This document shows positions 12,101-15,100 of a DNA stretch of 64,000 nucleotides, piece after piece. The position numbers and the translations under genes were made by a program. Where the stretch lies: contig NC_088305.1 of NCBI RefSeq assembly GCF_032854445.1, positions 19,391,717-19,455,716 on the forward strand, in the 5' to 3' direction. Source of the DNA: Liolophura sinensis (taxonomy: Eukaryota; Mollusca; Polyplacophora; Chitonida; Chitonidae). The notes below the pieces were generated by a model. It was not told the DNA's origin and did no database searches. It was given only the letters and a program-made list of their open reading frames with translations. The number at the start of each line of letters is the position of its first letter. Position 1 is the first letter of the stretch.

Positions 12101-15100
12101 TACTGTAATTCTTCAACTTTTCGCGTGTTTGCAAAGGTGTTTACTCAAGCATATTCTGAAGGAATTATTCTGTGCTGACATATAAAACTATACTTTTTGT
12201 GAAACCCTGAAACTGGCCCATCCAAGCTATGTTGTTTTGTTTCTAAAGTAAGTTAAAAATGTGTATACATTTCACTGGAAGTTGCTCTTTCATATGCGAA
12301 AAGATTGAGAAATTTGGGTAAATAAATAAATCTTTCAAATCAGTACATAATGTTTTCAGAAAAAAGTAAATGCTGCCAGAAACATACATATTTTTATGCT
12401 TGTTTCAGTATGTCAGTGGTTGAGTATTATGAACACATGTATTTTTGTGCTTGTTTCAGTATGTCAGTGGTTGAGTATTATGAACATGTGTATTTTTGCT
12501 CTTGTTTCAGTATGTCAGTGGTTAAGTATTATGAACATGTGTATTTTGGCTATTGTTTCAGTATGTCAGTGGTTGAGTATTATGAACATGTGTATTTTTG
12601 CTCTTGTTTCAGTATGTCAGTGGTTGAGTATTATGAACATGTGTATTTTTGCTCTTGTTTCAGTATGTCAGTGGTTGAGTATTATGAACATGTGTATTTT
12701 TGTCCTTGTTTCAGTATGTCAGTTGTTGAGTATTATGAACAGGACGACATCCTCAAGTTACGACAAGCGTCCCTAAAGAAAGAGGATGCTGATTTGCAAC
12801 TAGAATTAGAAAAGCTGGAGAGAGAGAGGAATTTACATATTAGAGAACTTAAGCGAATTCACAATGAGGATAACTCTAGGTAAGTCATTCATTTAGAGAA
12901 CAGGCTGTGGAACAAATCACCTTTCAAACTGTTGAATTTGGGCCAAATTATGCAAGTAGCTGAGCATGCTAAATTGTAAATGTAAAATTTTCAGGTTTTC
13001 AAAATGATATTTTCTGTTCAGTAGTCATAAAATGTCTGCTTTAAGCTGCTTTAGTGGCGATCTTTTAAGCTAAATAACTCCATTTTTATGTTATTTTAAT
13101 CCAGGAATCCAATTTTCATTGCAACTCAAAGATAAACCAAAGCTAGAGGAAGCTGCTTAGATCACAAAACAATTTCAAGATGACAAAATGGTTTCAGATT
13201 TCAATTCCTAACTACAAACTTGTACTACTAGACAAGTGGACATGAAATCCAGAAAATCAGTGTACTGTTATGTGTTTGAATACCTTCACTCATATCTCTG
13301 TTTTGTGTTTCAAGATTTGGGCTAAATTTTGGTGGATTTCTGTTGAGCACATCTATGGGTATTCACTTAGATTCTGGTGAAAATAACAAAAGTGAATGCC
13401 TGTGCTAAAAATAGTAATAAAATGCTAAAATGTATTCCCTCACATGCTCTTTGATTTTTGTCAAGAAAAATCTGCTTCTTGAGGTTACTTAAATTCATAA
13501 CTCATTAATAAAAAAATGGTCTTGTTAGCAGAAGATGTCTATGATGCCTTTTAAGATTCAAAAAAAAAAAAAATGTACTCCCTTTCAACATGCAATTAAG
13601 ATGTGTTAAATATTATTCTTTGGACGACTTTCAGATTTAAAGATCATCAAATTTTAAACGAGAGGTATCTTCTGCTGAAGTTGTTAGGGAAAGGCGGGTT
13701 CAGTGAGGTGCATAAGGTAAGTCACACTGAGGGTTCAGCCGGGATCAAAATGGCCGATATTTCGAGCTCTTCAAAGACATGACCTGCACAGGGCCTCCGT
13801 GGCAGAGGGGGTTAGCACGATCCAATGACCCAGGAGCCTCCCGCCAATGTGGTCGTTTTGAGTTCAGTTCATGACAGCAAACTGCAGAAGGCTGGGGTTT
13901 CTCCTGGGCTCTGCACGGTTTCCTCCCACCATAATACTGGACGCCGTCGCATAAGTGAAATATTCTTGAGTAAGGCGTAAAAGACCAATCAAATCAAATT
14001 AAATTCAATGTGTTTTAAATTTTAAAAAATCTTACAAAGACTTACAAAGTCTCCTGTAAGATTACCTGTATTTGGGAGCAGTTCCTCTCTTCTAACCACT
14101 GCCTTCAGTTTTAGATCTTGTTTTGAAGATGCCGCTTGGTTTATTTACAATTGTTTTCACCCCACCATGTGCTCACCTCCCTTGTTGAAAGATGACCCTG
14201 TGTAAAAATCGCAGAAATGTAATCTAGGCGAGGAAAGGGTAGAGCATGCATTATTGCTGCTATTGACATCTTACTCATTTTTTCACTGTAACATAAATAT
14301 ATTTGAATACATGTCATTTAACACCACTGAAAAGAATAAATGTGAGGGTACTAATTGTGGAGTTGTTTGTTGTAGGGTTTTGATATAAAGGAACAGAGGT
14401 ACGTGGCCTGCAAGATTCACCAGCTCAATAAGGACTGGAAAGACGATAAAAAGGCTAATTATATCAAGTAAGTCACCAGCACACCATCATATCAGCTCTG
14501 CTTGGTTAAAAATTGATTTACATCAAGTAAGTCACCAGCACACTTCCTTGACCCAGGAGCCTCCCGCTTGATTAAAATTTGTTTATATCAAGTAAGTCAC
14601 CAGCACACCATCATGTCCGCTCTGCTTGGTTAAAAATTGATTTACATCAAGTAAGTCACCAGCACACCATCATATCAGCTCTGCTTGGTTAAAAATTGAT
14701 TTACATCAATTAAGTCACCAGCACATACGATAGTGTGGTGATGAGTAATGACTGCCTGTTTCCCTGAAAGAAATGTAATGACATTGCCTGTTTCCCTGAA
14801 AGAAATGTAATGACATTGCCTGTTTCCCTGAAAGAAATGTAATGACATTGCCTGTTCCCCTGAAAGAAATGTAATGACATTGCTGGTTTCTCTTACAGAA
14901 TGGTAATGATGTTGCCTGTTTCTCTTAGAGAAATGTAATGACATTGCCTCTTTCTCTTAAACTCTTTTCTCTTTCACATGATGTTGCCTGTTTCTTTTAA
15001 ACGAATGTAATGACATTGCCTGTTTCTCTTATAAAAATGTAATATTACTCCTTGTTTCTCTTGCAGACATGCTCTTAGGGAATATAACATTCACAAAAGT

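Follow-up and report, generated by a model that had tools for sequence, protein, structure and literature searches.

In one gene of a chiton (Mollusca), the 3' splice site in front of a single kinase exon is present in seven near-identical copies, one behind the other. The locus raises the question of which copy would be spliced and whether the extra ones matter to the protein. The initial annotation had offered two answers, a generator of isoforms or a neutral expansion tolerated as long as it stays open. We addressed this question in the window, a stretch of 64,000 nucleotides (G000:C11:19391717-19455716), and in the single assembly to which it belongs (609,464,459 bases in 632 contigs).

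The host gene is, by sequence similarity, a tousled-like kinase (TLK). A tblastn search with a human TLK2 sequence recovered a chain of 13 coding exons from 9248 to 19432 (+), with GT/AG borders, which join into 512 stop-free codons; the model starts at 9248, and exons between 3260 and 9248 lie outside it. Both the coiled-coil segment and the kinase domain of a TLK were matched: the exon 3' of the array matches TLK2 (PDB 5o0y, E 2.3e-17), and a Pkinase domain was found in the gene (E 4.9e-25). The open codons and the TLK2 match bear out the kinase identity first assigned to the gene, as well as the exon donor placed after 11323. The TLK2 match runs on uninterrupted when the acceptor at 12715 is taken, each earlier copy adding 17 residues by sequence, and it is on this homology that copy 7 is presumed to be the acceptor in use.

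The array occupies 12381..12741 (+) of the window. Each of its seven units combines the last 24 bases of the intron with the first 27 bases of the exon, and the array runs directly into the TLK exon (Table 1). Tandem Repeats Finder places it at 12399-12741, with a period of 51, 6.7 copies, 95% matches and 0% indels; in the repeat search, all six spacings between acceptor copies are 51, with no indel. TTTCAG is present in seven of seven copies, the last of which continues into the TLK-matching exon, and TTGTTTCAG with a T-rich tract lies upstream of every exon start. Identity at a lag of 51 reaches 94.5%, a value attained by none of 2000 segments of 361 bp drawn at random from the window (mean 26.9%, maximum 92.3%, segments overlapping the array being kept in). 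Units 5 and 6 are identical to the consensus and each remaining unit departs from it by one to six bases; the frame is open and stop-free across the array at 17 codons per unit. Thus the initial annotation was correct in its seven copies at exactly 51 bp, in the pyrimidine tract and TTTCAG belonging to each, in the 17-codon period without a stop in any unit, and in its acceptor positions from 12409 to 12715. A search of the chiton's own genome with the array gave a single match, G000:C11:19404097-19404457.

Table 1. Splice-site copies, arrays and associated exons in the chiton genome. Positions without a contig name are those of the window; a slash marks the exon border.
Feature	Position	Strand	Details
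Preceding TLK exon, donor pairs with the array	11186..11323	+	gene model
Acceptor copy 1	exon start 12409	+	7.2 bits; would add 102 residues
Acceptor copy 2	exon start 12460	+	8.9 bits; would add 85 residues
Acceptor copy 3	exon start 12511	+	8.0 bits; would add 68 residues
Acceptor copy 4, weakest	exon start 12562	+	3.1 bits; would add 51 residues
Acceptor copy 5	exon start 12613	+	8.0 bits; would add 34 residues
Acceptor copy 6	exon start 12664	+	8.0 bits; would add 17 residues, exon 216 nt
TLK exon, presumed authentic acceptor (copy 7)	12715..12879	+	8.9 bits; encoded peptide ends RIHNEDNS
TLK kinase-domain exon with repeated donor TCAA/GTAAGT	14376..14467	+	gene model
TLK donor array, about 5 copies, 59 bp (one spacing 65)	14459..14725	+	donor of exon 14376-14467 repeated
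TLK 32-bp array, pyrimidine-rich units	14745..14961	+	in the intron of the 59-bp array; not junction-spanning
Third TLK array, 16 copies, 48-50 bp	19411..20218	+	end of last TLK exon found, CCAA/GTAAGT
CCT donor array, 66 bp x7	C8:53405557-53406017		junction-spanning
CCT donor array, 107 bp x2	C8:53407213-53407428		junction-spanning
CCT acceptor array, 41 bp x13.4	C8:53412452-53412994		junction-spanning
CCT donor array, 109 bp x5.1	C1:72037868-72038430		junction-spanning
Kinesin acceptor array, 64 bp x11.8	C8:681443-682199		firm; nine copies of TACAGGAAG
Kinesin donor array, 73 bp x21.6	C11:27413087-27414650		firm; exact donor kept in four of the fetched units, the fetched stretch stopping inside the array
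Kinesin acceptor array, 27 bp	C9:4628200-4629381		probable only

Lancelet genes are known to carry arrays of the same kind, termed mirages, which have been described in Adh3, the globins BflGb6 and BflGb9, troponin C and PGBD5 (PMC3087553, PMC3902484). As characterized in those reports, mirages are, like the TLK array, minisatellite-like tandem duplications of an intron/exon boundary; they lie on either side of the exon and hold many copies with AG/GT signals, the authentic copy being the one that borders the exon. In the TLK array, too, the tandem unit contains the boundary, the copies carry splice signals and the authentic copy, as judged by homology, borders the exon. The closest type is the BflGb6 array, which joins an intron 3' end to the 5' part of an exon and whose two reported haplotypes carry 6 and 3 units, respectively (PMC3087553). 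The differences concern the host, a chiton instead of a lancelet, and the unit, 51 bp in TLK against 150-160 bp in BflGb6, 157 bp in BflGb9 and 10-72 bp in Adh3 (PMC3087553). A literature search poor in subscription papers returned no mirages outside lancelets, molluscs included. The 51-bp array is a splice-boundary minisatellite, or mirage, in a mollusc, where several genes carry such arrays, and its kind is already known from lancelets.

Two other systems resemble the TLK array in part. Intron gain by tandem genomic duplication (at an AG/GT proto-splice site) likewise duplicates a stretch across a splice-signal sequence; the TLK array, in contrast, copies an existing junction and no new intron is seen. 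The TLK2 match is continuous with copy 7. Short-range tandem acceptors, of the type named NAGNAG, are also competing acceptors able to insert whole codons, but the TLK copies are spaced at 51 nt and every one has a tract and a candidate branch point to itself. Where acceptors lie within 9 nt of each other, the choice is reported to fall in the second step of splicing, the first step being common to both; beyond a distance of about 20 nt, a site is typically defined by a tract and a branch point of its own (PMC9225289).

The TLK gene contains two further junction-spanning arrays, one at a donor and one at a donor or stop codon (Table 1). In the 59-bp array, GTRAGT is kept in four copies and the last reads TTAAGT; in the third array, the GT of the donor is present in 16 of 16 copies. 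Reading past the first copy of either leads to an immediate in-frame stop. The AA/GTAAGT letters of the third array themselves contain an in-frame stop (AAG TAA) and can be read as donor or as stop. An apparent gap in divergence between the exon and intron parts of this array (p 3e-7 without gaps) was discarded because gapped alignment gives p 0.89. Its unit bordering the last exon, 19411-19458, recurs identically (48/48) at 20055-20102, 644 bp downstream within the array, which points to conversion or to a larger duplication. The intron at 14468-15066 is mostly made of two arrays. The first extends from its 5' splice site; the second, the pyrimidine-rich 32-bp array near its 3' end, stops about 100 bp upstream of the acceptor.

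A sample of CCT and kinesin exons from the same genome yielded six further firm junction-spanning arrays and one probable array. For CCT, 50 of 50 exon matches were examined with 40-nt margins (39 in an earlier pass); for kinesins, 55 of 132 matches were examined (30 in their own loci and 25 judged to lie inside fetched loci), 52 of them with margins. The firm junction arrays consequently number nine, in five genes (TLK, CCT and kinesin), or eight if AA/GTAAGT of the third TLK array is a stop. The seven donors of the 66-bp CCT array, whose coding frame is also open, are identical across nine bases, four of the five donors of the 109-bp array are identical, and the 41-bp array carries the acceptor TACAG 13 times. 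The three C8 arrays near 53.4 Mb are taken as belonging to one gene because of the position and order of the matches. This apparent single CCT-type chaperonin gene, G000:C8:53403323-53413982, would carry all three of them, and about a dozen bases past a further donor it has an array of 27 bp x43. Three arrays were left uncounted: those in kinesin genes at C6:54957735 and C1:4563080, which are intronic and adjoin a junction, and a 27-bp array at C8:53411173-53412343, where the overlapped CCT match itself extends into the intron.

The answer to whether junctions are targeted by such arrays varies with the null model. A local copy (score of 25 or more) was found at 3 of 27 TLK junctions (11%) and at 12% of 400 centres placed at random across the region, so special targeting is unnecessary. 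Arrays cover 11% of the TLK gene and 11% of the window (non-overlapping Tandem Repeats Finder rows, hand-picked), and 13.7% of the 180,531 bases fetched around CCT and kinesin exons. Pooling the 27 TLK junctions with the 78 edges of 39 CCT matches gave 7 of 105 spanned (p 0.10 against 12%), perhaps an undercount because HMM edges differ from exact junctions. Counting arrays or seed units instead of covered bases led elsewhere: three of seven arrays lie at junctions, against a mean of 1.94 under uniform placement (P 0.29), 0.72 when exons are spared (P 0.028) and 0.41 with single units (P 0.005), so that junctions are hit above chance under the last two nulls.

The window holds other repeats as well. 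A SINE-like dispersed family, which resembles a molluscan SINE, occurs at 13781-14010 (+), at 48073-48203 (-) and at about 20 further places. Its head is tRNA-like, and its 3' part is conserved and has CACCAATCAAATAAATAAA at its end. A 90-bp array of 12.9 copies (22675-23827) has a 30-codon unit that is open in one frame over most units, with stops in a few, and the Pfam scan gave no family there. Dense diverged arrays with periods of 11 to 110 bp and adjacent opposite A/T strand skew fill 57597-60285, and a direct duplication of 459 bp (98.9% identity) links 38428-38886 with 41344-41797, 2.9 kb apart. Six-frame scans of the 44 kb that follow the kinase gene on its downstream side (20-64 kb of the window) detected no Pfam family at E 0.1 (0.001 in one scan); as a positive control, the kinase exons were detected.

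How might seven acceptors coexist with correct splicing? We consider it highly probable that the TLK array is a mirage-type minisatellite, born of slippage and nearly neutral, in which exon definition selects the exon-proximal acceptor at 12715. In this scenario slippage or microhomology repair would first have doubled the 51-bp piece spanning the junction, and later expansion would have brought the number of units to seven; the left edge (AGAAACA/TACAT, the slash here marking the array border) and the right edge (TGAACA/GGAC) have AACA in common, which fits such an origin. Splice sites would be paired across the exon, so that 12715 is taken mostly and the remaining six units are removed as part of the intron. 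Leakage to copy 6 would be expected to some extent and, as the added unit keeps the frame, would cost little. We infer copy 7 as main acceptor with some such leakage from the sizes of the introns and candidate exons. The intron measures 1391 nt up to copy 7 and 1085 nt up to copy 1, the downstream intron 755 nt, and the possible exons range from 165 nt (copy 7) to 471 nt (copy 1), only copies 6 and 7 giving less than 250 nt. With both flanking introns above 250 nt, cross-exon pairing would leave the copies nearly neutral.

The exon-definition rule applied here to a chiton gene derives from human data. In the EST-based data, sites between long introns are reported to favour cross-exon pairing, with 5' sites between long introns favouring shorter exons; at 3' splice sites, the preference for the upstream site is described as significantly weaker but not as reversed (PMC9225289). 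In lancelets, regular splicing reportedly proceeds undisturbed by the mirages (PMC3087553, PMC3902484). A profile built from the 12 other acceptors of the TLK gene scored the seven copies at 3.1-8.9 bits, inside the leave-one-out range of those 12 (-7.1 to 15.2), which makes the copies real competitors and leakage plausible. Copy 7 scores no higher than copy 2 and has only a slight lead over copies 3, 5 and 6. The profile itself is a rough one: it gives an unrelated AG at 11480 a score of 9.6, above every copy. Masking of the copies by secondary structure was considered and rejected (z +1.04, 86 of 100 shuffles folding at least as well).

The best-surviving alternative, though an unlikely one, is that the seven acceptors form a regulated or stochastic ladder. 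TLK would then carry 0 to 6 extra blocks of 17 residues directly ahead of its third coiled coil, and these would tune the state of the dimer or oligomer. The scores within the gene's own range speak for such a generator, as do the open frame with its six indel-free spacings and the position of the insert, at or just before the predicted start of the third-coiled-coil helix (residues 111-156). The model behind this prediction, a single-sequence AlphaFold run with the helix from residue 111 of 157 and mean pLDDT from 82.6 to 43.0, carries little weight because its five versions disagree. Human TLK2 activity is reported to survive deletion of any one coiled coil (PMC6023931), so that inserts could be tolerated.

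The weight of the open frame can be judged against other arrays and against chance. The nine firm periods are 51, 59, 50, 66, 107, 41, 109, 64 and 73. Of these, 51 and 66 are divisible by three, in line with chance (two of the first seven arrays tested, p 1.0), and the frame-breaking period of the other seven argues against a generator. Simulated acceptor duplications at the 13 acceptors of the TLK gene were in frame in 5525 of 16562 cases and also open in 4495, that is, in 27% of all duplications and 81% of those in frame, which makes the open frame weak evidence for isoforms. Two of three forward frames are open through the array, and the probability that the nine changes between units create no stop is 0.48. 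Among units 1-6, six of these changes are nonsynonymous, out of 115 that could arise, and three are synonymous, out of 26 (p 0.22), and constraint on the protein between units was not found in this comparison. The sole hint of constraint, one that coding constraint could yield and that favours the ladder, is the lower divergence of the exon-derived part of the units (2 of 189 positions against 14 of 168 in the intron-derived part, p 0.0012), a contrast that fades to p 0.05 in units 2-7 and p 0.42 in units 3-7. The clean reading frame is probably luck, and the in-frame open length would be a coincidence that makes any leakage benign. Between the two possibilities of the initial annotation, these periods, the stops in the sibling arrays, the simulated rate, the second open forward frame and the ratio of changes favour the neutral expansion; the isoform generator is not favoured, and what speaks for it is the plausible leakage among acceptors that all score within the gene's range.

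It is less likely still that the array is a constitutive coding repeat, copy 1 being used and the protein always carrying six inserts. The frame would allow it, and copy 1, as the closest to the donor, would be favoured under intron definition; however, this requires a 1085-nt intron with a 471-nt exon, TLK2 has no such insert, and the branch-point candidates of copy 1 score lowest of the seven (by rough weights). Least probable of all is an assembly artefact, a wrong unit number or a false expansion: repeat-number errors do occur, and a lancelet mirage was apparently assembled aberrantly in a genome draft (PMC3087553), but PacBio HiFi reads of Liolophura japonica (averaging 8,347 bp, 14X; PMC11068029) far exceed the 361-bp array, five of its seven units deviate from the consensus and comparable arrays exist in other genes.

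The nine firm cases in five chiton genes suggest that mirages are no oddity of lancelets. A bolder combination, that chitons carry many junction minisatellites (with up to about 16 near-identical sites) and splice them correctly, and that the TLK array in addition yields graded isoforms varying between individuals, seems to us improbable. Five transcriptome sample accessions of Liolophura japonica (SAMN35319765 to SAMN35319769) are named in PMC11068029. Mirages may be overlooked wherever intron minisatellites are dense, and each array is a natural test of the choice among near-identical splice sites that differ in their distance to the exon or to the partner site.
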